Assembly: GCA_027483445.1 (NCBI GenBank)
Contig: JAIXUS010000018.1
Coordinates: 62,001-126,000 of the forward strand
Reading direction: 5' to 3'
Length of the DNA stretch: 64,000 nucleotides
Origin: Bacteroidota bacterium
Lineage (GTDB): Bacteria > Bacteroidota > Bacteroidia > M30B66
Shown: positions 2,569 to 14,829 of the stretch, one piece after another
How positions within the stretch are numbered: the first letter of the stretch is position 1
Layout: every line of letters starts with the position of its first letter
Made by a program: the position numbers and the translations under genes
Notes under the pieces: model-generated
The model's input: only the letters and a program-made list of their open reading frames with translations
Database searches by the model: none
What the model was told of the DNA's origin: nothing

Positions 2569-3524
2569 TGAATCACCATCAGGTTTGCCTTGCGTAATTC
2601 AGTCTTATCCTGAACCATCAGCATATAAAGTCCGGCCGGCAAACCACTCACATTGATTCTACCTTCAGGGCTGATAGCCACTTGCTGCATTTTTCCAGAC
2701 ATATCGAAGAGTTGAGCCGAAGCTTGTTGAGCATCAATTCCGTCTAACTGAACCCAATCAGTAGCTGGATTAGGAAAAAGCCCTACACTGGAACGTTCTG
2801 CCTGACTAACTCCAACGCCATTGTTTGGAACGTTAATGCCTCCGGGCGTTATGCCCGCGCCTTGCGGGAAATTGGCACTCACTTCCAATGGATCAAATTG
2901 ATTAGGGCTGATGAGGTCGCCATTGTACCAGGCTGAGGCCGAGGAAGGCGTAGTGTTGTCGAAGAACCGCACTGCCGCATCCGGAGTGCCCGCACTTTGG
3001 CTTAAAATCACGCCTCCGTAAATGAGGGCATTTACATCGCCATTGGTCCAACCTACAGCGTCCTGAATGATAGCTCCCTGCGGTAATTCGAGCACTCCAT
3101 CGTTGTTGTTGTCATAATCGACGTTTGTTAAAATCGGCGATGGACTGAACAAGACGAGAAACGAAATGCTTCCGTTGTCAAGAATGGGCAGACCAAAAAT
3201 TAAGGTGTCTTTGAAAACCGTTGGTGGTGCGATGTTCGGATATCCAAGGCTTGTTCCAATGAATACCAATCCATTGGAGCCCAGCGTGATTCCGTTAAGT
3301 GGAATAACCAAATCGGAATTTCCGGCGCTACCGGGGTCGCCTTCGATGACTACGACAAAAATGTTATTAAGGGTGCTTCCGGGACTGCCTTTAAGCTCGA
3401 TAAATTCCTTCCCATCGTCGGCTCCGGGCGGATTTACTACAATTTCGTTGAGGAGTAACTGTGCATTCAATGCACCAGCAGTCAGCACAAGGCTGAACAA
3501 GGAAGTAATTAGAGGTTTAATCAT
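2565..3524 (-). CDS. Secreted lamin-tail-like protein with T9SS type A sorting domain
   Basis: A 319-residue secreted protein of unknown function. The N-terminus (MIKPLITSLFSLVLTAGALNAQ) is a signal peptide. The next ~100 residues open with LLLNEIVVNPPGADDGKEFI, resembling a lamin-tail domain, an immunoglobulin-like fold common in secreted Bacteroidota proteins. The last ~80 residues contain LFPNPATDWVQLDG and a LPAGLYMLMVQD segment, the pattern of a T9SS type A sorting domain, so the protein is expected on the cell surface or outside. It begins 2 bases after the stop of the CotH-type gene, which has the same N-terminal domain, so the two are probably one operon. Confidence 0.82.
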   Translation of the reverse strand: MIKPLITSLFSLVLTAGALNAQLLLNEIVVNPPGADDGKEFIELKGSPGSTLNNIFVVVIEGDPGSAGNSDLVIPLNGITLGSNGLVFIGTSLGYPNIAPPTVFKDTLIFGLPILDNGSISFLVLFSPSPILTNVDYDNNNDGVLELPQGAIIQDAVGWTNGDVNALIYGGVILSQSAGTPDAAVRFFDNTTPSSASAWYNGDLISPNQFDPLEVSANFPQGAGITPGGINVPNNGVGVSQAERSSVGLFPNPATDWVQLDGIDAQQASAQLFDMSGKMQQVAISPEGRINVSGLPAGLYMLMVQDKTELRKANLMVIH

Positions 3525-3526
3525 GC

Positions 3527-6500
3527 TTATCGGGTGATGGAAATTCTTCCTTGAGCCGTTTCGAAATACTCGTCTTTCAGGAAATAATTGAGGACGTAAA
3601 AGTAGACATCATCTGGTAAAGGGCGACCGTTAATTGTGCCATCCCAAGAAAAATCGAGTTTATCGGATTGAAACACCTGTTCTCCCCAACGATTAAAAAT
3701 TCGGATGTTACCTTGCGAAACGGTTTCTGTGTGGTACACCTCAAATACATCGTTGAGATTATCACCGTTAGGAGTGAAACCACTTGGAACATACATCGTT
3801 TGCGGAATTACTTCTTTCAGTTTAAAATGTGCAATGAGGGTATCGGTGGTGTCGATGACAAACGAATTCACACTCAGGCTTGAGTCGGTAAATGAATGGT
3901 ATTGCAGCTCCCAACGGTCGAATTCGAATTCCTCGAATCCGTAGTTATCGATGTTGATTAATGTTTGTGGGAAGTAGACCTCAGTATGCGGATATTCTTG
4001 AAGCCAATCACTATTAAGCAGCACTTTACCTGAACCTTCCGGCTGCACCTGAACGGTGAGTAACCATGTTTGCTTAGGAATAAATCGAATAAAGATGGTA
4101 TCATCGGCCGAAGCTTCCAGGAAAACACTGGTTTGTAAAGGATCGGGACTGAAAGTATGGTTCGCCGCTGCGTACTCCACAAAATCATAGTTCGGATCGG
4201 CTGTAGCTGTTAAGCTCAATGGGAATCCGTCGTTATAAGTATTGCTGAATGGGAATGCCCCGGGGGTAATTCCATTGATTGAGACCGTTCCTCCATTGGG
4301 AGGTTCAATCACGAAGGTAATATCGTGCGTTTCAACCACCCTGAAATGAGCAACAATACTATCAGCACCTGCAATCATGAAGCTGTTGATGGCATCAGTG
4401 GTAGCACCGTTCAAGGTTGAGTTGAAAACCTCCCAATAATCGAATACATAAGCCGGACTGCTTGGTGTAGCCTCTAAATCGCCCTCAACACCTCCAAAAT
4501 AGGAGCCGCTCCAAGGGTAATTCGGAATGGTAAGCTCGTTGAACTTTATTGTACCACCTCCAGCAGGAACCACCTGAAAGGCCATCCGATGCGGCCCATC
4601 CACTTCATAACAGTTTACCACTCCCTGCTCTTCGATGTACTCGCATCGCCCAACAATCTGGCCTCGCATATAATCAATGTTGCCTTGCCAATCGGCCATT
4701 GTTCCTCCCCAACGTGCAATCTGACGTGGCATTTCTGTTTCAATGTGTGCCTTAATACTGTCGAAATGCGCCAAAGCATACTCGCAGCCGAGGTATGTAT
4801 TGATAAGTTCAGCGTATCGGTTTACAAAACGCTGTTTAAATTCCGGGTTGGCCAACAAGCGGTTGTAAACGTTTAGATGCCCTTCTTCTGGACCTGCATT
4901 TTGAAACTGCTCATCCAAATCGCAGGGGTCAGCATTGAAATCGGTGGTGGGCCAATTGCTGTAGTTCTGCCCCAAATCGAACACGTTGTCCATGTCCCAC
5001 AAGATGTACTTCCAACGAACGGGTGGCGTTCCACGGCCTCTCCACCACATGGTGTTCCAGTTCATCCAGTCGGAGTTCACACTCCAAGTATTCAGAATGG
5101 TGTAATCAATCAAAGAGGCCACATCTAAACGCCCCGAAACAGCACCGTAGTTAGCCGGATCGGTCATGTCGTTGGTCATGATGTAGTTGTACAAATCGTT
5201 CCAGTCATCAGCGCTACCATAGCGCACCTCGAGTCCTCCCCAAAAACTAAGCATGTCGAGGTCTTCCTCTTCCTGGTTCCAGTAGTAGTCGGTGTAATCC
5301 GGGTCATTCACCCTTTCGCGTACTTCATACAGACCCCAATATTGCCCGTTAATGTAAACTGCACAATGTTGATTCCGCCTCAGATCGACATTTAAATTTG
5401 CCCGTTCGGCCAAAGACTGAATAAAGGCATCGCGAAGGTGGCAACCTGGCCCCCAGGTAAACGGATAATTGTCGGAAGCTCCGGCCTTGAATATGATTCG
5501 TTGAAATTCTTGTCGGGGTGATGTCGGGAAAATTGGGTAGTCGATTTGATCATCGTACCCATACTGATCGCGCACAATAAAGCCAACCCCTTTTTGATTG
5601 AACGCCCAGGAGTCATTCCCATGGCGATCTACTTCCCCAAACGACTCAAACAGAAGCTGACCGGTGGGTGAAAAATACTCTATCGCAGCTGGAATTTCTT
5701 GCCAACCTGAAGCGAACAAGTCATCGTACTCGTCAGAAATCCACGAAGCAATTGGCATGTCGTGGCTAACGCCAATCAGGTAGGTGTTCGAGGCAATAAA
5801 GCTGGGTAAAAAACCACTACCGTTTGCAGGGAAGGCCCGTGCACGAATTACAGTAGAGGCATTTACAGTAATTGGAGTGGTAAATTGTGGAGAAGTCGCG
5901 CTAGGTTCTGCTCCATCGAGGGTGTATCGAACTGTATAACCGGCATCACCGGAAATAATATCTATGGTTTGTGCACCGGCATAAATTCCCGGAGCCAAAC
6001 TAAACTGTGGCGTATCTGCATATCCGCTGAATGATGTTGCCCCATTGGCGGAACCTGGAGTAGGTGTTGTGAAAACTCGCCAATTCCCACCGTTAGGCTG
6101 CCGTCCCCAGCTGTGATTAACCTGGATTGGACTCAATGCGTATGAGTCGAGCAAAGTACCAATGCTGTTGGAAAACAAAACGGTTTCTCCGTTCATTTGA
6201 TTCAGCTTAAAGTTGGTGTGTAAAGCCAAACCATTGTTTTCGTCTCTGCCTGAACAGAAAAAAAGGCGGTACGTTCCTGCATTGATCACGGTTCCTGCCG
6301 GAATTTGCCATTTTGTGGGATTGGCAGGCTCATCGCTCAGGAAGAAACTGCTTATATCAACAGCGGCAGGTCCGGCATTGTAAAGCTCAATGTAATCTTC
6401 ATAGTCCCCGTAGTCATCTGCAACTATTGCCCTGTTGGCCGCCGAAATTTCGTTTATCAGCACCTGAGCCCGCAATGAATGCAGGCCAAGCGAGAGTATA

Positions 6501-6529
6501 GATACGAGAAAAATATAGATAGATTTCAT
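3527..6529 (-). CDS. Large secreted CotH-type protein (lamin tail, chitobiase-C-like, CotH, repeats, T9SS type B)
   Basis: A 1000-residue exported multidomain protein. Order of parts: signal peptide (1-22); lamin-tail domain (about 22-135, LINEISAANRAIVADDYGDY); chitobiase-C-like Ig segment (about 172-250, RYTLDGAEPSATSP); CotH domain (about 255-620) with YWGLYEVRERVNDPDY and the metal-binding motif WDMDNVF at 511-517; three related beta repeats (about 660-900, ending in phrases such as IVAHF, IFIRF, LIAHF); and a gliding-motility-type C-terminal domain (about 910-1000, FTPNGDNLNDVF, FNRWGEQVFQS) that marks T9SS type B export. CotH proteins are atypical secreted protein kinases in spore formers; substrate here is unknown. 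It has its own promoter and precedes the small lamin-tail gene. Confidence 0.88.
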   Translation of the reverse strand: MKSIYIFLVSILSLGLHSLRAQVLINEISAANRAIVADDYGDYEDYIELYNAGPAAVDISSFFLSDEPANPTKWQIPAGTVINAGTYRLFFCSGRDENNGLALHTNFKLNQMNGETVLFSNSIGTLLDSYALSPIQVNHSWGRQPNGGNWRVFTTPTPGSANGATSFSGYADTPQFSLAPGIYAGAQTIDIISGDAGYTVRYTLDGAEPSATSPQFTTPITVNASTVIRARAFPANGSGFLPSFIASNTYLIGVSHDMPIASWISDEYDDLFASGWQEIPAAIEYFSPTGQLLFESFGEVDRHGNDSWAFNQKGVGFIVRDQYGYDDQIDYPIFPTSPRQEFQRIIFKAGASDNYPFTWGPGCHLRDAFIQSLAERANLNVDLRRNQHCAVYINGQYWGLYEVRERVNDPDYTDYYWNQEEEDLDMLSFWGGLEVRYGSADDWNDLYNYIMTNDMTDPANYGAVSGRLDVASLIDYTILNTWSVNSDWMNWNTMWWRGRGTPPVRWKYILWDMDNVFDLGQNYSNWPTTDFNADPCDLDEQFQNAGPEEGHLNVYNRLLANPEFKQRFVNRYAELINTYLGCEYALAHFDSIKAHIETEMPRQIARWGGTMADWQGNIDYMRGQIVGRCEYIEEQGVVNCYEVDGPHRMAFQVVPAGGGTIKFNELTIPNYPWSGSYFGGVEGDLEATPSSPAYVFDYWEVFNSTLNGATTDAINSFMIAGADSIVAHFRVVETHDITFVIEPPNGGTVSINGITPGAFPFSNTYNDGFPLSLTATADPNYDFVEYAAANHTFSPDPLQTSVFLEASADDTIFIRFIPKQTWLLTVQVQPEGSGKVLLNSDWLQEYPHTEVYFPQTLINIDNYGFEEFEFDRWELQYHSFTDSSLSVNSFVIDTTDTLIAHFKLKEVIPQTMYVPSGFTPNGDNLNDVFEVYHTETVSQGNIRIFNRWGEQVFQSDKLDFSWDGTINGRPLPDDVYFYVLNYFLKDEYFETAQGRISITR

Positions 6530-6562
6530 AGTGGTCAGTGAACGCGCATGTTAACGCAACTT

Positions 6563-6592
6563 CAAATTTACATGAAGTTCTTCGAATAGCAA
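6563..6592 (-). promoter_or_regulatory. Bacteroidota-type promoter of the CotH-type gene
   Basis: On the minus strand a TTG (6592-6590) is followed by 19 bases and then TAAATTTG (6570-6563), a full match to the TAnnTTTG -7 box. The predicted start lies near 6556, giving a leader of about 27 bases before the ATG at 6529. It separates CotH-gene transcription from the upstream receptor gene. Confidence 0.6.
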
Positions 6593-6646
6593 TCGAAAGC
6601 ACTTTATTTCTTACGCATTCACAAATAATTATTGATAAAAACCTGA

Positions 6647-8980
6647 TCAAAATTCGAGTCGGTAACTCAAGGTTGGAATAATACCCGTCATGTAAATAAC
6701 CTCCTCTTTTAACGCGTCGTTGTTGAAGTAGCGGCCAAACTCATTCAAACGATTACTCACATTTTGAATGTCGATTTTCCAAACACTGGCCGTTTTCCTT
6801 TTATTGATGGTGTAGCTGATGCCTAAATCGGCTCGGAAATAATCGGCTGCCGAGGCCGAATATGCCCTCGCTTCATCATATACTCCTGTTCCGGCTTCGA
6901 GCGATTCCTCGAGAAGCACGGGCGTGAATTTTCGTCCACCCGAATATACAACCCGTACATTCAAACTAAGGGTGTTTTTGTCCTTGATAGTGAACTCTTT
7001 ACCGGCCAAAAAGCTTCCTGCATAGCGGTTGTTAAAAGCGGTATTTCTCCAAACGCCGTCTGAACCCCGGTAGCGAGCGTCGAAAAAGGAGTTTGTGAGA
7101 AGGAAGTATGTGCTGTTGGAGAAATATTTTTCAAATGTAAATTCAATTCCATAGTTCCGGCCCAGCCCGCTGTTTTCGGCGGCAAATGTGGCAAAGCCCT
7201 GACTCATATTCAGCATCGACCGAAAGCTGGATATACCTTTTTCCACAGGTACATCATACAAATGCTGATAGTACACTTCGGTTTTGAAGTGCAGGTTTTT
7301 TCCGGGCAAACATTCATAACCCATCACAGTGTGGAAAGCTCGCGAAAAGCCCAATTGGGTATTGGGTATGGTGTTCATGCCGCTTAAGTCGGGAATTCGG
7401 GCAAAGTAAACGGCTAAGTCTTCCAGTCGTGAATGCAAACCAATGCCGGCACTCAGGACTTGTGAACCCTTGAAATTCCACTTAATGCCCGCACGTGGCT
7501 CCAATGCTCTTTTATTGTTGAGCAAAAAATGACTGTAGTGGATGCCCGTATTCAAGGTGGTTTGCTCGTTGATGCGATGCTGCCAATTGAGAAAGCCTTG
7601 CAGCAAACCTGTTTGACCGCGTTGGTCTACATCTGTTCTGTACATGTCGTTGGGCTTATCAAAAATCACCGTTTTTAGGTTATATTTCAGTAAGCTTCCA
7701 ATAGCGCCAGCACGAAGACTGTTTTTGCGGTTGATTTTGTGGTTAATGGTTGATGACACTCGGTATGCCATATTTTGATGGCCTTCTTCGGAGGCTTTGT
7801 AAAGTACAACACTATTGGTATCGAGCACAGTGCCCTCATATTCGTTCGATGTGAGCGTGCCTGCAACTACGGTTTTTATCCATGTTTTATCGTTGAACAA
7901 ATAACTGTGTGTGAGGCCGGCAACGCCGAGATAGGTCCTGAAACGATCAGCATAATTCGTTTTCATACCTTCAAAATCCTGATTGATACTGCTCAATCCA
8001 CCAATGCCAAAGAGGGTAAACTGACCGGCTTTTTGAGTTGGAAGGTTGAGGTTGAACGATAAATCCTGGAAAACCGGAATGGCATCCCCCACAATTTCTA
8101 CCCCCATGCGTTGAAGAAGCGCCAAGGAGGAGTAACGATAATTGAAGAGGTAGGAGCCCGCTTTTCCCTTTTTGAATGGCCCTTCCAGGGCGATGTCGGT
8201 ACCGATTACTCCAACTTGAAGTGCATTTTCACGCTGCTCGTTATTGCCTTTTCGCAAGCGGATGTCGAAGACCCCTGAAGCTGCGTTTCCATAGTCGGCC
8301 GGAAAGGCTCCGGTGAAGAAGTCGGAATTGGCCATCATGTTGTTACTCAGCATGGAGATGGCTCCACCGGATGCTCCCTGGTTGGAAAAGTGGTTTGGAT
8401 TTGGAATTTCAATGCCTTCCATACGCCAAAGTAGGCCCCGGGGCGAGTTCCCCCGAACCACGATTTCGTTGGTTCCATCAGCATTCACCGTTACTCCGGC
8501 AAAGCTTTGTGCCATCCTGCCCGGATCGTTTAAGGCCCCGGCATAACGCTTGGTTTCCTCAACCGAAAACTGACGGGCACTTACCGTGGCCAACTCATTC
8601 AAGGCTTCTGTTTTATTAGCGCCTTGAGCCGAAATTTCCACAGCCTCAATTTCTACCGTACTCTCAGTAAGTTTAAGGTTTAGAATGACTTCCTTTCCGG
8701 TTCCGACCACGACATTAGGCATGTTTAATTCCTGATACCCCAAAAGTTTCACCTGAATGGTATAGCGCCCGATTGGAACTGCGTTAAGTCGGAACTGACC
8801 GTTGAGGTCGGTTATTGTTCCCATGATTGGATTGCTGGGTATCAGCAGAATGCTCGCACCGGGAATGGGCATTTCAGTAATTTGATCGCGAACCTCACCA
8901 CGTATGGTTTGGCTGAGCGTTTGGCCTTGGCAAATAAGGTGGATGTTAAGCAGAAAAATCAGAATTGATGTGGTTTTCAT
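6647..8980 (-). CDS. TonB-dependent outer-membrane receptor with carboxypeptidase-regulatory-like N-terminus
   Basis: Outer-membrane receptor that imports an unknown ligand using TonB energy. From the chosen ATG at 8980 it has 777 residues: signal peptide (MKTTSILIFLLNIHLICQGQ), a CarboxypepD_reg-like domain (IRGEVRDQITEMPIPGASIL...), a plug (ETKRYAGALNDPGRMAQSFA, EIVVRGNSPRGLLWRMEGIE), then a beta barrel ending in the aromatic-terminal LSYRLEF. The in-frame ATG at 9010 would add ten polar residues ahead of a good signal peptide, so 8980 is preferred. There is no STN signalling domain and no SusD partner. It follows a surface-repeat protein gene by 62 bases and is probably co-transcribed with it. 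Ligand cannot be read from the sequence. Confidence 0.9.
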   Translation of the reverse strand: MKTTSILIFLLNIHLICQGQTLSQTIRGEVRDQITEMPIPGASILLIPSNPIMGTITDLNGQFRLNAVPIGRYTIQVKLLGYQELNMPNVVVGTGKEVILNLKLTESTVEIEAVEISAQGANKTEALNELATVSARQFSVEETKRYAGALNDPGRMAQSFAGVTVNADGTNEIVVRGNSPRGLLWRMEGIEIPNPNHFSNQGASGGAISMLSNNMMANSDFFTGAFPADYGNAASGVFDIRLRKGNNEQRENALQVGVIGTDIALEGPFKKGKAGSYLFNYRYSSLALLQRMGVEIVGDAIPVFQDLSFNLNLPTQKAGQFTLFGIGGLSSINQDFEGMKTNYADRFRTYLGVAGLTHSYLFNDKTWIKTVVAGTLTSNEYEGTVLDTNSVVLYKASEEGHQNMAYRVSSTINHKINRKNSLRAGAIGSLLKYNLKTVIFDKPNDMYRTDVDQRGQTGLLQGFLNWQHRINEQTTLNTGIHYSHFLLNNKRALEPRAGIKWNFKGSQVLSAGIGLHSRLEDLAVYFARIPDLSGMNTIPNTQLGFSRAFHTVMGYECLPGKNLHFKTEVYYQHLYDVPVEKGISSFRSMLNMSQGFATFAAENSGLGRNYGIEFTFEKYFSNSTYFLLTNSFFDARYRGSDGVWRNTAFNNRYAGSFLAGKEFTIKDKNTLSLNVRVVYSGGRKFTPVLLEESLEAGTGVYDEARAYSASAADYFRADLGISYTINKRKTASVWKIDIQNVSNRLNEFGRYFNNDALKEEVIYMTGIIPTLSYRLEF

Positions 8981-9042
8981 CGATGAAATAGGATTTGGAA
9001 GGCTTGTCATAAAAGCCTTATTGATTTGTTGGTTTTGATGGA

Positions 9043-10254
9043 TTAGAATCGAATACTGAGAAATCCGCCCGGCCAGAGTTGCACACGGGTTTGGTTGTAA
9101 ACTTTGTCGAAAACACTGTAAGGAGCCACGGTTTGGTCGGTAGTTAGCTCTCCGACCGATTGTTTGTTTACAATCAGGCAGTTAAAGCTCGGCCCCGCCG
9201 AGATGGCAAAACGGGTTGCAACTTGCCATGTAAATCCAAATTGTGCCTTACTGAGGAGGTTAAGGTGGTTGGTGTACCACTGACCTTCGTTAATGTGCGA
9301 GGCCAACAGGTCGATGTTCATCCGAAAGCGGCCCCTCGGCTTAAGGTTGACCCCAATACCGGTTCCCCAGGCCCAGGCAAAGGCATTGCCCGGTCTGGCA
9401 GAAAAGTGAAACAAATTGTAAAACCGATCTGAGCCTGTTTTCAGCTGAATGCCCAATGGAAAGGTTTCGTTGGCTGTGAGTTCAAAGGCGGTAAATCCTC
9501 CTTTTCTTACGATGCTCAAAAAACCAATAGGAGTGCCGCTTTCTAAAGAGTCGGTGTAATTGATAAATCCAACCTGCAGGCCTTTTAGTCGCTTTGTGAT
9601 ATTTAGGAATCCCGCTATTTGCAGCCCTTTTGTACTCCCAGTTGCGAGATTCATAAAACCTGCAACCTGCACTCCATTCAACGAATCCTGAGCGTGGTTG
9701 TAAAAGCCTGAGGCTTGAGTTCCCTTAACCGGTGCCGTGGCGATGTTGCTAAAACCTGCCGTTTGAATTCCATTGAACGACTGGCTGTTCACATTTAGAA
9801 ACCCAGCGCTCTGCCATCCTTCGAACGAGCCATTATTCACATTGCAGAATCCTGCAGCCTGCACGCCTGATGAAGTGTCGTTAACAACGTTGGCAAATCC
9901 TGCGGCTTGCACACCTCTGCTTCCATGCCGAGTTACATTGCTGAAGCCAGCGACTTGAAGGCCATCGCTTTGGCCCCCAACCACATTCACAAATCCGCCG
10001 ATTTGTGCACCGCGAACATCGTTTTTTACCACATTGGCAAAACCACCCAGCTCGAAGCCATCAACACCTCCCGAATAGCCTGATATTAAGTTCAGCGAAA
10101 AGGTGTTGATGCTGCGAGCGTTGCCAATTCCATTGGTGCCCAAGGGATGAACAAGGGTGATTTGGAAGGGTCTTGTTTGGGTTATTGTGCTGTCGCCGGC
10201 CTTAACGGCTGTATACAGTCCTAAAAAAATCAAAAGGGAAATTCCAGTTTTCAT
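9043..10254 (-). CDS. LA_2272-type surface repeat protein
   Basis: A predicted surface or outer-membrane protein of about 403 residues, unknown function. A signal peptide (MKTGISLLIFLGLYTAVKAG) supports the start at 10254 rather than 10263. The middle holds ten consecutive repeats of exactly or nearly 16 residues with consensus GxQxAGFxN followed by seven variable residues, e.g. GVQAAGFCNVNNGSFE. The last ~160 residues look like membrane beta strands (WAWGTGIGVNL, FGFTWQVATRFAISAG). Repeats and tail both resemble those of the larger protein at 11269-13215, so the two are paralogues. The name comes from a Leptospira family with GF-N repeats; assignment is from the repeat pattern. It lies between pirin and a TonB-dependent receptor on the same strand. 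Confidence 0.78.
   Translation of the reverse strand: MKTGISLLIFLGLYTAVKAGDSTITQTRPFQITLVHPLGTNGIGNARSINTFSLNLISGYSGGVDGFELGGFANVVKNDVRGAQIGGFVNVVGGQSDGLQVAGFSNVTRHGSRGVQAAGFANVVNDTSSGVQAAGFCNVNNGSFEGWQSAGFLNVNSQSFNGIQTAGFSNIATAPVKGTQASGFYNHAQDSLNGVQVAGFMNLATGSTKGLQIAGFLNITKRLKGLQVGFINYTDSLESGTPIGFLSIVRKGGFTAFELTANETFPLGIQLKTGSDRFYNLFHFSARPGNAFAWAWGTGIGVNLKPRGRFRMNIDLLASHINEGQWYTNHLNLLSKAQFGFTWQVATRFAISAGPSFNCLIVNKQSVGELTTDQTVAPYSVFDKVYNQTRVQLWPGGFLSIRF
9583..10059 (-). repeat. Coding tandem repeat, 48-base (16-codon) period
   Basis: Ten in-frame units encode GxQ-x-[AG]GF-x-N plus seven variable residues, the last unit being 15 long. The amino-acid pattern is strict while the DNA copies differ, so this is an old, selected protein repeat rather than a recent expansion. 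Confidence 0.8.
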
Positions 10255-10314
10255 ATTGGTCATTTCCCTTTTGACAGGTCAGGGGGCATGCACCCCTATG
10301 TGAATGAAAAAAAA

Positions 10315-11193
10315 TTATTCCTCAATCAGGACGCCCATTTTTCCCATTTGATAGTCGCGCATGGCTTCGAGCAGTTGAGTTTCGCTATTCATTACAAAGG
10401 GACCATGAGAGGCCATGGGTTCGGCCAACGGTAAGCCACTGAGCAAAAGCAAGCGCGTAGGCTTTTTGGCTTGGAATGAAATGCCATCACCATCGTTTTT
10501 ATACAGAACAGCATGGTGCATTTCGGCCGAACCATAATTGGGAATTTCGATTTCTCCATCGAGTAAATACAGGATTACTGTTTCAGCGGCGGGTAAATTG
10601 AGCGCTATGTTTGCCCCTGGCTGTGCGTCGATGGTAGCTGTAGTAACTGGCGAAAGGGTAGGGATTTTCCCTTCTAAACCGGCGAGCTGCCCACTCACCA
10701 GTTTTATTTGGTATTTACCCTGAGGATCATTTATGCGCGGCATGTCATCCCCGCGTAGCGGAAAATAGGCCGGAGTATCCATTTTATGCTTCGCCGGAGT
10801 GTTTACCCAGAGTTGGATAATTTCTTGCCGACCTCCCAAATCGTGAATGTTGGCCGGAGGTCGCTCACTGTGAATGATGCCTCGGCCGGCATTCATCCAT
10901 TGAACACCGCCTTCGAGCACAACCGATGAGTTACCGAAACTGTCGCGGTGATGCACACCCCCTTTGAAGATGAAGGTAACCGGCGAAAACCCACGGTGCG
11001 GGTGTGGACCAACGCCGTCGTTTTTGGGGTCGAAAAACTCCGAAATCTTCATATCGGCATGGTGTAGCAACAGAAAAGGGTCGGGGTAATCAACGTAGTG
11101 AGAAGGGAATGGCTGACGTACCCGAAGCTTACCCATCGGGTATTCCTTGGCGTACAGCAAGGCTTGAACGCTTCGGTTTTGGGTTGTTTTCAT
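10315..11193 (-). CDS. Pirin family protein
   Basis: A 292-residue cytoplasmic bicupin of the pirin family; bacterial members bind a metal and some have quercetinase activity, but the substrate here is unknown. The N-terminal cupin shows the expected histidine cluster VGPHPHRGFSPVTFIFKGGV followed by HHRDSFG and GGVQWMNAGRGIIHSE, which supplies the metal ligands. The C-terminal half contains the second cupin and ends VLIEE. Its upstream region carries a perfect 16-base palindrome 19 bases before the ATG, suggesting regulation by a dimeric repressor or activator. It sits between two paralogous surface-repeat genes, although its family is not normally envelope-related. Confidence 0.93.
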   Translation of the reverse strand: MKTTQNRSVQALLYAKEYPMGKLRVRQPFPSHYVDYPDPFLLLHHADMKISEFFDPKNDGVGPHPHRGFSPVTFIFKGGVHHRDSFGNSSVVLEGGVQWMNAGRGIIHSERPPANIHDLGGRQEIIQLWVNTPAKHKMDTPAYFPLRGDDMPRINDPQGKYQIKLVSGQLAGLEGKIPTLSPVTTATIDAQPGANIALNLPAAETVILYLLDGEIEIPNYGSAEMHHAVLYKNDGDGISFQAKKPTRLLLLSGLPLAEPMASHGPFVMNSETQLLEAMRDYQMGKMGVLIEE

Positions 11194-11268: not shown

Positions 11269-13215
11269 CTAGAAAAATCGGATGCCGGCTTGCCAGCCTA
11301 ACCAGCCAAAAAACTGCGCGTCGGGACGGATTTCGCTGAACAGATCGCTACGATGTATACCGGGGCGTTCGCCATTTAGGTTATTTTCATCGATACGATA
11401 AGTGTGGATGCATGGTCCTGCAAAGAGTTGTATTCCACGTACAGGTCGCCAGCCCAGGTATAGGTTACTCTTGGCCCAGAGATCGGGAAAAACATTAGGA
11501 AGAAACTGCCCCTGGAAAACGGTAGCCAATTCAAGGTCGATGCCGAAGAAGAACTTTTTTCTGGCTCGAAGTTCGGTACCGAGGCCATAGCCAAAACTCG
11601 AGAATTGGGCATTGTTGAGTTGAAAAAGTCCGGCGCTAACGATATTGTACAATCCATACGTTCCGGTGCGGAAACGAACCATCAGTGGATTTACATCGCC
11701 TGTGGAGAGTTCCAGCTTATGGTAACCTCGTCTCACGAGGCTTATCAGGCCAAAGGTAAATCCGCTAACGGTGTCAGATACATTGATGAGTCCGACTTGT
11801 GAACCGCTCACTGTGCCGGCAATATTGAGTAAACCGGAAATTTGGGAGCCTCTAAGCGTATGTGCAAAGTTTGCGAGGGCTGCAATCTGGAGGGTTTGTG
11901 AGCTGTCGGCTACCACATTCACAGCGCCGCTTAACTGAACACCGCTCATGTCGCCTGCACTCAGGTTCATAAAACCTGCACATTGTACGCCCTGAAAGTC
12001 GCCACTGGTGATATTGGTAAATCCTGCCACCTGCACGCCGCTGGCTTTTTTACCGCTCCAATTCAGAAATCCGCTCATTTGAATTCCACGAAGCGATTTC
12101 CCGGAGAAATTGCTAAACCCGGCAATCTGCAAGCCTTTTACCTGGCCGCGGGCTAAGTTAAAGAAGCCCGCAGTTTGAATACCGCGTAAGGTGTCGAGCG
12201 AAAGGTTGTAAAATCCTGCCAATTGGGCCCCATCAACCCGGCCAATATTGTTATTCATGAATCCGGCGAACTGAATCCCTTTTGTGGCACCCCCGGTAAT
12301 ATTCATGAATCCGGCAAGTTGAAAGCCCGAAACATCGCGTCGGGTAATATTGAACAAACCGGCTATTTCTGCGCCATTCAGCCCCATTGAGTACCCACCG
12401 AGAACATTCAGGGAAAAATGATTTTGGATGACTCCGCCGAATTGCCGGTTGCTACCAAGGGTGGGAAGAAATCCAACCTGGATACTGCGTTCTTCAAAGA
12501 ATATACGGTTTTCGGTGTGGAACACTTGCTCTTCCGAAACCACAGCCTGAAACAGACCGTTGGTAGCCAAGTTGGATGGGATTTCCGGTTCGATGCGTTG
12601 TAATTCATCAATTGTGGCCGGCCTGATGCGAATATTTAATGGGGTGTCGCCTTTCGGCTTGATGACAATTACGGTATCGCGATAGCTCTTTCGGCTAATC
12701 AAAAGATGAACATATTCGGGCTCTCTGTCCAACTCGATTCGATACCGTCCAGTTTGGTCGCTAAGGGCGCTTTTGAGCTGACCGGCTTCATACACAGAGG
12801 CATATTTCACCGCCTTGCCACTTAGTTTATCGGTAATGGTACCCTCCAGCACATATTTTTGATTGCCCAGCTCGGATCTTTTGTTTTTGTTGGGAATGAT
12901 AATGATGTGATTGCCTCCCGAACGCAACTGAATGTCATCACCCAACACTTGTTGTAAGCAATAACTTACCGTTTTCTGCTCGGCTCTGAGGCTTTTCTTT
13001 TCGTTGGGATTAACCGTTGATGCATTGTATGAATAAAGAAAGGCACCTTTTGCGGCGATGACTTTAAGGGCTTCCTGTATGGTCACTTCGCGCAATTGTA
13101 CACTGATTCTTCGCTGTAAGGGATTGTCTTGTGATAAGCCCAAGGCCGTTTGAAAAAGGAAAGTCAGAATAACGGCGAAACCCCTAACAACCAATGCCTT
13201 TAAGCGAATATTCAT
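11269..13215 (-). CDS. STN-domain protein fused to LA_2272-type 16-residue repeats
   Basis: About 648 residues, probably outer membrane. Parts (numbered from an ATG at 13221): signal peptide (1-30); STN domain (about 38-110, VTIQEALKVIAAKGAFLYSY), the periplasmic module that contacts FecR in TonB-receptor signalling; a CarboxypepD_reg-like domain (about 124-200, LEGTITDKLSGKAVKYASVY); a linker; about thirteen tandem repeats of consensus GxQxAGFxN (283-486); and a strand-rich tail (about 487-650) like that of the paralogue at 9043. The ATG at 13215 is used, 13221 being equally possible; either overlaps the fecR 3' end. Third gene of a sigma-FecR operon, a place usually taken by a TonB-dependent receptor. 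No plug or receptor barrel is present. Confidence 0.8.
   Translation of the reverse strand: MNIRLKALVVRGFAVILTFLFQTALGLSQDNPLQRRISVQLREVTIQEALKVIAAKGAFLYSYNASTVNPNEKKSLRAEQKTVSYCLQQVLGDDIQLRSGGNHIIIIPNKNKRSELGNQKYVLEGTITDKLSGKAVKYASVYEAGQLKSALSDQTGRYRIELDREPEYVHLLISRKSYRDTVIVIKPKGDTPLNIRIRPATIDELQRIEPEIPSNLATNGLFQAVVSEEQVFHTENRIFFEERSIQVGFLPTLGSNRQFGGVIQNHFSLNVLGGYSMGLNGAEIAGLFNITRRDVSGFQLAGFMNITGGATKGIQFAGFMNNNIGRVDGAQLAGFYNLSLDTLRGIQTAGFFNLARGQVKGLQIAGFSNFSGKSLRGIQMSGFLNWSGKKASGVQVAGFTNITSGDFQGVQCAGFMNLSAGDMSGVQLSGAVNVVADSSQTLQIAALANFAHTLRGSQISGLLNIAGTVSGSQVGLINVSDTVSGFTFGLISLVRRGYHKLELSTGDVNPLMVRFRTGTYGLYNIVSAGLFQLNNAQFSSFGYGLGTELRARKKFFFGIDLELATVFQGQFLPNVFPDLWAKSNLYLGWRPVRGIQLFAGPCIHTYRIDENNLNGERPGIHRSDLFSEIRPDAQFFGWLGWQAGIRFF
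11764..12375 (-). repeat. Coding tandem repeat, about thirteen units of 16 (later 15-14) codons
   Basis: Ten successive units keep a 48-base period (e.g. GIQFAGFMNNNIGRVD, GLQIAGFSNFSGKSLR), after which spacing shortens to 15 and 14 codons. The G-x-Q-x-[AS]-G-F-x-N core is kept while loops vary, consistent with a repetitive beta structure. Confidence 0.8.
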
Positions 13216-14206
13216 GGCCATTTTTGATAATCGTTAATCCAAAGGTTTCTCCGATGATGCTCAGAATTTCATCGAGCGACTGCTGCTTAAAGGAAGCGGT
13301 AAGCCTACAATTTTCCAGTCCGGTACCCAGCAGAGTTATCCGCGTTCTGAACAAATCGCCCAGCAGAAGCGCTACACTTCCCAAATCGGTATTCTCAAAT
13401 ACCAGTGTTTTATCGAAGGCAAAGTCAAGCGCTTGAGCAGTTCCCATTTGCACCTTGATTTTTCCTTGATGACCAATCACTGCTGTTTGTCCGGGCACAA
13501 TCACCACAGCACTGGAGTCGGCGTTTGCTTTTTTGGCCGGGGTATTCGATACAAGCACTTTCCCTTCAATCACCGAAACCTTCATGGCTTCACCGAGACT
13601 ATCTGTTTCTACAGTAAATGTGGTTCCCAAAACCCGTATAAATCCTTGTTGGCTTTCTACAACGAATGGCTTAGACTCGTTACGTTTCACTTTGAAGCGC
13701 GCAGAGCCCTTGAGTAATATTCTTCGTTCCGTTCCCGTTTCAAAAAGGTTGTATTGCACGCTCGACCCTGGCTTTAATGTAACAACCGAGCTGTCGGGAA
13801 GCATTGATTCCTTGTAAGTTGTTCCGCTTGATATTTCCGCAACATACTGCACCGTTTTCGCAGGGTCATCCCTGAACAGGAAAAACAGCCCAAAAGCGAT
13901 GAGCAATGTTGCTGCAACGGATAAACCTAAGGCCAGCCTAACAACTCGCCCTTTGTTGGTTTGGCCTTCTTTCGTCGGCAAATTGGTCAATTGCGGTTTT
14001 AGCTTTTGCCATGCCTTTTCAGTATCGAATTTATGACTTGGAGCGGACGTTCCCAGCTCCAGAACCTTTTTATAACGATCTATTTCAATCGCTCTTTCAG
14101 GATCTTCGGCCAGCCAATGTTCGAGTTCGGCCCGTTCTAATGGAGAGGCCTCTCCCAGCAAATAGCGGGCAATCAGGGCTTCGTTGGGTTCGGGGTTGGT
14201 TGACAT
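13184..14206 (-). CDS. FecR family anti-sigma factor
   Basis: Inner-membrane regulator that holds an ECF sigma factor until an outer-membrane partner signals through the periplasm. The 340 residues contain an N-terminal cytoplasmic part (1-88, IARYLLGEASPLERAELEHW), one transmembrane helix (about 89-111), the periplasmic FecR domain (SGTTYKESMLPDSSVVTLKPGS...) and a C-terminal DUF4974-like segment (LVFENTDLGSVALLLGDLF... LDEILSIIGETFGLTI). It begins 5 bases after the sigma gene stop, and its last 30-40 bases overlap the start of the STN-repeat gene, so the three genes form a tight operon. Confidence 0.93.
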   Translation of the reverse strand: MSTNPEPNEALIARYLLGEASPLERAELEHWLAEDPERAIEIDRYKKVLELGTSAPSHKFDTEKAWQKLKPQLTNLPTKEGQTNKGRVVRLALGLSVAATLLIAFGLFFLFRDDPAKTVQYVAEISSGTTYKESMLPDSSVVTLKPGSSVQYNLFETGTERRILLKGSARFKVKRNESKPFVVESQQGFIRVLGTTFTVETDSLGEAMKVSVIEGKVLVSNTPAKKANADSSAVVIVPGQTAVIGHQGKIKVQMGTAQALDFAFDKTLVFENTDLGSVALLLGDLFRTRITLLGTGLENCRLTASFKQQSLDEILSIIGETFGLTIIKNGHEYSLKGIGC

Positions 14207-14211
14207 GGCAT

Positions 14212-14829
14212 TTACATTAAGACCGTTAACATGAAAATCACCCCTACGCCGGGCCGAAGAAATTGCAATGCTCCTGCAGCGAGGCCCGCCAGCACCGGTA
14301 AATAGTCTCTGAGCTCGGAACGCAAAATTTTAAGGGCTTTTCCCATTTGATTTTCTACTGTTTTGATAGAAATATCAAGGGTTTCGGCAATTTCTCGGTA
14401 CGAAAACCCGGCCTCTCGGCTTAGCTGGAAAATTCGTCGACATTCACCGGGAAGCCTCTGCAAGGCTTGTGAAAACTGATGAAGCAATTGACGATGTTCT
14501 GCATTTTCTTGAGGCATCTGCGCTTCGTCGAACTGCAGCTTCCAATCTTCGCGGTAGTGCCCCTTCACTTTTTGATGGTCAATCCAATTGAGGCAACGGT
14601 TGTGCACCGATCGGTACAAATAAGCCTTCAGGCTGGTTTGAATGCTGAGTTGAAGCCGTTTCTCCCACAATTTTACAAAAACCTCCTGGACAAACTCCTC
14701 AGCCTGGGTTTCGTCTTTCAGCAATGAAAAGGCATATCTGCACAAGGGTTCATACCAATTTCTGAAAACGGTTTCAAAGGCTGTTGTGTGGCCATTGCGG
14801 ATTTCTTCAATGAGTTTGGCGTCATCCAT
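14212..14829 (-). CDS. ECF RNA polymerase sigma-70 factor (FecI-like, Bacteroidota type)
   Basis: Directs RNA polymerase to a small regulon when released by the adjacent FecR. Start chosen at 14829 (MDDAKLIEEIRNGHTTAFET); the in-frame upstream extension to 14880 is hydrophobic and unlike sigma factors. Region 2 is LCRYAFSLLKDETQAEEFVQ followed by EVFVKLWEKR; region 4 is FSYREIAETLDISIKTVENQ. After region 4 come about 30 largely hydrophobic residues (LPVLAGLAAGALQFLRPGVG then VIFMLTVLM), which could contact the membrane. The FecR gene follows by 5 bases. Target promoters are not identifiable here. Confidence 0.92.
   Translation of the reverse strand: MDDAKLIEEIRNGHTTAFETVFRNWYEPLCRYAFSLLKDETQAEEFVQEVFVKLWEKRLQLSIQTSLKAYLYRSVHNRCLNWIDHQKVKGHYREDWKLQFDEAQMPQENAEHRQLLHQFSQALQRLPGECRRIFQLSREAGFSYREIAETLDISIKTVENQMGKALKILRSELRDYLPVLAGLAAGALQFLRPGVGVIFMLTVLM

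Follow-up and report, generated by a model that had tools for sequence, protein, structure and literature searches.

A FecI/FecR-type operon of Bacteroidia with a probable outer membrane transducer that is not a TonB-dependent receptor

In textbook cell-surface signaling one protein both senses and imports, which makes it hard to separate sensing from TonB-driven transport. A gene run in a Bacteroidota bacterium raises the question of whether FecR can instead be served by an outer membrane (OM) protein that is no TonB-dependent receptor (TBDR). We analyzed a stretch of 64,000 nucleotides (the window; GCA_027483445.1, contig JAIXUS010000018.1, positions 62,001 to 126,000). Its minus strand carries the whole run: genes for an extracytoplasmic function (ECF) sigma factor, FecR, a 650-aa protein with an STN signaling domain, a pirin, a repeat paralogue and a receptor that both lack STN, and a CotH protein (Table 1). 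The third gene starts inside the end of fecR, with a 38-base overlap. A preliminary description had taken its product for a "repeat surface protein" that replaces the TonB-dependent transducer (TBDT) of such systems. Our analysis indicates that this is probably a cell-surface signaling operon of the FecI/FecR type whose OM transducer is not a TBDR.

The 650-aa protein has a signal peptide followed by an STN domain, a CarboxypepD_reg domain, a predicted beta-solenoid of 16-residue repeats, and a small predicted OM beta-barrel with a terminal Phe. Searched alone, it matched CarbopepD_reg_2 at 5.6e-7 and STN at 2.5e-4, the latter under the Pfam cut-off. Among 56 orthologues, STN (PF07660) was matched by 36, with a best value of 7e-12, and CarbopepD_reg_2 (PF13715) by all. 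An AlphaFold2 (AF2) model from a 56-sequence alignment, with a mean predicted local distance difference test score (pLDDT) of 91.5 and a predicted template modeling score (pTM) of 0.72, folds residues 38 to 110 as beta-alpha-beta, beta-alpha-beta-beta, the topology published for signaling domains (PMC11637429). Foldseek matched this part to the N0 domain of PilQ (4ar0) and the next part to the transthyretin-like domain of carboxypeptidase D. Moreover, a profile built from the STN segments of the repeat-protein family alone recovered the N-terminal signaling domains of about 30 SusC-/FecA-like transducers (E values from 1.7e-18 to 5e-4) that adjoin other FecR genes. The STN domain of the 650-aa protein is genuine; the preliminary description had made its reading depend on an STN fold in this segment, and the segment has one. 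Plug (PF07715) and barrel (PF00593) were absent from the matches of the window protein and from the families that its 55 orthologues match, and the protein thus lacks the plug and receptor barrel of a TBDT. The composition first described, STN and CarboxypepD_reg-like domains joined to about thirteen 16-residue repeats without plug or receptor barrel, is borne out.

The strongest argument for a role in signaling is the exclusive pairing of this STN domain with FecR. At an E value of 1e-3, a Pfam STN search of the window genome returned no match, the Pfam model being too weak here, and the family-specific STN profile was used for genome scans in its place. By this profile the window genome has one STN, which lies in the gene adjacent to its one FecR_C. 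A single FecR_C was found in 36 of 49 carriers, and by coordinates each adjoins the STN-repeat gene. When 15 genomes were scanned with the STN profile, ten had a single STN, located in the repeat protein or its frame; the multi-FecR genomes (G040, G043, and G048) had many, in TBDT frames of 900 to 1200 aa. In single-FecR genomes there is no TBDT with a detectable STN remaining to serve FecR. Thus, the 650-aa protein is almost certainly the FecR transducer, and the sole FecR_C and sole STN in adjacent genes favor the earlier proposal that it would signal to FecR itself.

The pairing recurs widely, in no fewer than 71 species of Bacteroidia. A class-wide search of Bacteroidia gave matches in 149 of 395 genomes, and 80 loci picked from the match list were annotated with profiles built from the window proteins. 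The first batch of loci was selected for matches reaching the N terminus, and so shows the linkage of the STN form and not its frequency; the second was selected without that demand. The 72 STN-form loci comprise, counting the window, 71 genomes that by match-list labels span 28 families, plus one contig of a metagenome-assembled genome (MAG; L107). In 71 of the 72, the gene immediately upstream, in the same orientation, is fecR, the one miss (L088) beginning at a contig end, and fecR overlaps the STN-repeat gene in 51. In 68 loci the sigma gene comes right before fecR; the other four are L088 and L107, both at contig ends, plus L048 and L114. At L048, fecR (6311-7351) has no adjoining sigma gene, and a divergent monooxygenase-like gene stands in its place. 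All 11 STN-form loci of the second batch have FecR and sigma in the stretch (at L114, sigma is not directly before FecR), versus none of the nine second-batch loci with solely STN-less repeat proteins (FecR 0/9, sigma 0/9). A plasmid copy from Bacteroides ovatus is also STN-less and without FecR. A search with a three-row alignment returned four loci, all from MAGs; the operon is also present in the cultured Persicobacter psychrovividus NBRC 101262 and Persicobacter sp. JZB09. The STN-CarboxypepD-repeat architecture therefore recurs after sigma-fecR genes across Bacteroidia, the opposite of a repeat protein found mostly away from them, which the preliminary description had named as the outcome that would count against it.

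As a control, we inspected forty regions surrounding further FecR_C hits. In almost every complete one an STN-bearing TBDT follows directly downstream, either SusC-like (about 1100 to 1200 aa) or FecA-like (about 800 to 925 aa), as known systems predict; L162 was sampled on the wrong side, and L135 is truncated at a contig end. At L157, a 368-aa protein (2711-3817) with a weak Glyco_hydro_42 match (1.4e-4) is inserted between FecR and its STN TBDT. A second type of non-TBDR STN protein was seen after sigma-FecR genes: about 460 aa long, it combines STN with an OMP_b-brl_2-like barrel (L147:2510-3961, L149:4398-5786, L150:4293-5663, L151:4599-5990, and L152:3281-4657); the genes after it encode large adhesin-like proteins that are type IX-sorted and bear SBBP or SprB repeats. 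This type was found in genomes G039 and G079 only, which belong to one genus.

The two upstream genes encode the expected partners. The sigma factor is FecI-like and falls in the Bacteroidota subfamily, and its start, placed at 14829 by the preliminary description, is indeed an ATG in the sequence. The same description had recognized FecR with a DUF4974-like end, and domain matches agree for both proteins (TIGR02985; PF04773 and FecR_C/PF16344). In the AF2 model of FecR (pLDDT 87.2), a helical cytoplasmic anti-sigma domain (residues 9 to 74) is followed by a transmembrane helix (about 87 to 111, read from the sequence), a juxtamembrane domain made wholly of beta-strands, and a C-terminal STN-like subdomain (267 to 336). 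Foldseek matched FecR to a Parabacteroides FecR (4m0n, 1.2e-20) and to the PupR CCSSD as crystallized with the PupB signaling domain (6ovk_R, 1.8e-15). FecR thus has one transmembrane segment and a periplasmic domain of the PupR CCSSD fold, and the receiving partner is canonical. Footprinting upstream of the sigma gene revealed a conserved AT-rich element facing a divergent OmpH-like gene; no sigma-specific promoter was identified there.

What, then, takes the place of plug and receptor barrel? Over residues 286 to 490, the residue-identity autocorrelation at a lag of 16 is 0.333, compared with a mean of 0.08 and a maximum of 0.143 in 1000 shuffles. A strict repeat pattern fits ten copies, and in the AF2 model, where the repeat region has a pLDDT of about 98, the 16-residue register carries on over about 13 to 14 coils. 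The repeats belong to the known NCBIfam family NF047436 (LA_2272_repeat; 29.5 bits versus a curated cut-off of 25), which 42 of the 56 members match. Residues 243 to 431 are modeled with strands of 7 to 8 plus 4 residues per 16-residue coil, followed by longer strands, and residues 500 to 649 as eight long strands with Phe at the end. For the C-terminal part, Foldseek returned the small OM barrels NspA, OmpX, OmpA, PagP, and Ail. Of 72 orthologues, 53 end in Phe, as do 24 of 31 STN-less copies. We read the model as a beta-solenoid of about 13 to 14 coils (residues 243 to 498) followed by an 8-stranded OM barrel. An OM protein with an N-terminal STN is what a FecI/FecR system calls for, and here the OM location is predicted from the modeled barrel.

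Eight-stranded OM barrels have both termini in the periplasm. Since the solenoid lies between STN and the barrel, it should, and probably does, lie in the periplasm too, barring a path through the barrel. Of the earlier claim that a repeat surface protein replaces the TBDT, the replacement stands, given a real STN, linkage to FecR, and no plug or receptor barrel, but "surface" is not supported: nothing points to exposure of the repeats, and the predicted order STN, CarboxypepD_reg, solenoid, OM barrel would leave only the barrel loops outside.

Several observations weigh against this overall picture. The Foldseek matches to OM proteins are weak (E of about 0.02), the pTM of 0.72 leaves domain orientation unsure, and solenoid versus continuous barrel was judged from DSSP strings, not coordinates. 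A mirror-tree analysis likewise gave no decisive support for STN-FecR contact, with partial correlations of 0.33 between STN and the FecR juxtamembrane domain and 0.16 between STN and FecR_C.

From the computed gene order, domain homology, folds, and exclusive pairing, we infer how the operon might work. In the published model, the signaling domain is bound before the signal arrives and protects the anti-sigma factor (PMC11637429, PMC7186176); because of the homology with those systems, we adopt pre-signal docking for STN and FecR here. The exported 650-aa protein would be anchored in the OM by its small C-terminal barrel, from which the solenoid and the transthyretin-like domain would extend into the periplasm with STN at the tip. 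By analogy with FoxA/FoxR and PupB/PupR, STN docked on the FecR C-terminal domain would protect FecR and so control its proteolysis. If the barrel loops or the solenoid were altered by a ligand, a partner OM protein, or an envelope change, the STN-FecR contact could be released or reshaped, upon which FecR would be cut by regulated proteolysis and sigma freed. The sigma factor would probably act on its own operon and on the STN-less paralogue and TBDR genes downstream of it. Because the plug and TonB barrel are missing, the protein should be able to signal without itself importing a substrate. We tentatively put forward a form of FecR signaling uncoupled from transport and independent of TonB, in which a dedicated barrel-solenoid sensor would serve many Bacteroidia lineages as their only FecR system and may sense the state of the OM or surface and not an imported nutrient.

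Table 1. Positions and supporting evidence for the genes and domains of the run (window coordinates).
Feature	Position	Strand	Evidence
ECF sigma factor, FecI-like (Sig70_bacteroi1 type), 205 aa	14212..14829	-	TIGR02985 3.6e-50, Sigma70_r4_2 3.9e-14, Sigma70_r2 6e-12
FecR anti-sigma factor / sigma regulator, 340 aa	13184..14206	-	PF04773 1.9e-15; FecR_C/PF16344 (former DUF4974) 1.4e-9
STN-CarboxypepD_reg-solenoid-barrel transducer (almost certain role; solenoid and barrel predicted), 650 aa	11269..13221	-	Domain searches, AF2, Foldseek, linkage
STN domain, residues 36-112	12886..13116	-	AF2, Foldseek PilQ N0, profile matches to TBDT signaling domains (down to 9.9e-19); sole STN of genome
CarboxypepD_reg-like / transthyretin-like domain, residues 122-200	12622..12858	-	PF13715; Foldseek 5aq0 1.7e-4
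16-residue G-x-Q-x-A-G-F-x-N repeats (LA_2272 type), predicted beta-solenoid, residues 243-498	11728..12495	-	NF047436, lag-16 period, AF2
Predicted OM beta-barrel, ~8 strands, residues 499-650, C-terminal Phe	11272..11727	-	AF2 strands, Foldseek OM proteins
Pirin, between transducer gene and STN-less paralogue	10315..11193	-	
STN-less repeat paralogue: repeats + barrel, ends in Phe	9043..10263	-	NF047436 3.5e-13
TBDR without STN: CarboxypepD_reg, weak plug, barrel	6647..9010	-	Domain search
CotH-kinase, lamin-tail, InlB-B-repeat protein with CHU_C type IX sorting domain, end of gene run	3527..6529	-	

The receptor at 6647 offers a different explanation. It might import a ligand with TonB and contact the repeat barrel or its paralogue, with the repeat protein acting as an adaptor that relays the signal to FecR in trans. 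No STN was found in this receptor by domain search, and the genome-wide STN profile finds its one STN in the 650-aa protein. The same TBDR type is a frequent partner: for 33 of 50 genomes, or 34 if a contig-truncated copy in G008 is counted, its best genome-wide match falls in the STN-repeat locus, although such genomes have about 7 to 20 matches each. Away from sigma-FecR, an STN-less repeat barrel lies directly beside a member of this TBDR family at L125 (6911-10574) and L126 (4616-8241), possibly an OM partner pair, and such stand-alone pairs suggest joint working. However, the receptor type is present in about 60% of loci, leaving some 40% without it in the fetched stretch, and several genomes that look complete have their best match elsewhere. 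Relay through the receptor, as the preliminary description had also considered, is thus not supported as a requirement, and we regard a transducer split in this way as conceivable but doubtful. It is rather unlikely, though worth weighing, that the barrel and solenoid, instead of binding a ligand from outside, report on the condition of the OM or periplasm, such as the assembly of repeat barrels or TBDRs, by an RseA-like stress logic built from FecR parts. A closed 8-stranded barrel offers no import path, the long periplasmic solenoid and its nearby STN-less look-alike could compete for a common partner, and DUF2807 proteins recur in about 20 of the 72 loci (e.g., L099:5723-6448, a head GIN domain protein, PF10988 1.1e-48). 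Most known FecR systems, on the other hand, answer extracellular ligands.

It seems very improbable that the repeat protein is merely a target or cargo of sigma, with STN a leftover of domain shuffling and FecR answering to another transducer. The STN form is not one clade: a single origin was not supported on the tree of the C-terminal part, which requires at least six switches between STN and STN-less forms, so STN has been repeatedly gained or lost. Yet where STN is present FecR is too, and where it is absent so is FecR (71/72 versus 0/9); moreover, many genomes have no other STN protein. Returning to the solenoid-barrel protein as transducer, its neighbors are probably partners or targets and not required parts; these are the TBDR, the DUF2807 proteins, and the STN-less repeat copy, which about 21 of 72 loci carry, either within the locus or downstream in the same orientation. 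We rejected the idea that DUF2807 proteins and the STN-less paralogue replace one another, as both are present in 11 loci. The pirin gene is also found at L044 and L045, of the same genus, and nearby at L046.

How new is this arrangement? FecA/FecR/FecI, PupB/PupR, and FoxA/FoxR share with it the sigma factor, a FecR with juxtamembrane and STN-like periplasmic domains, an OM protein with N-terminal STN, and the operon order, but there the OM protein has a plug, a 22-stranded TonB barrel, and a transport route, in place of which we find a predicted solenoid and small barrel. The SusC-/FecA-like TBDT systems of Bacteroidota have homologous sigma, FecR, STN, and CarboxypepD_reg in the same gene order; in them, however, STN-CarboxypepD_reg runs into a TBDR of 800 to 1200 aa, and a SusD-like gene follows the SusC type. 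VreA, from the FecR-type system VreA/VreR/VreI (PUMA3) of Pseudomonas aeruginosa, is an STN transducer that has no TBDR barrel (PMC2729926), and TBDR-free STN transduction is therefore not categorically new. VreA differs in being small, mostly soluble in the periplasm, and equipped with a TolA/TonB-like C-terminal domain, whereas the protein described here, from another phylum and 28 families, has a C-terminal solenoid and barrel predicted to anchor it in the OM. The same 16-residue repeats define the LA_2272 family surface repeat proteins (NF047436) and the VC2662 family (NF047437), but those models cover just the repeats or short stand-alone proteins, without STN, CarboxypepD_reg, or a FecR operon. 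We found no description of an OM-anchored solenoid-barrel STN transducer in the open-access literature searched, which is not proof of absence. The new signaling architecture claimed at the outset thus narrows to a new, widespread variant of an idea that VreA precedes.

The solenoid-barrel operon looks like a widespread, undescribed route of signaling from the OM, and often the only FecR system of its host. In this broadly conserved operon, evolution would have separated sensing from transport, so that one can ask by experiment how little suffices to switch FecR and whether TonB energy is required. It also would give a function to the LA_2272 repeat family, hitherto named without one, and many environmental Bacteroidia may have no other FecR system.

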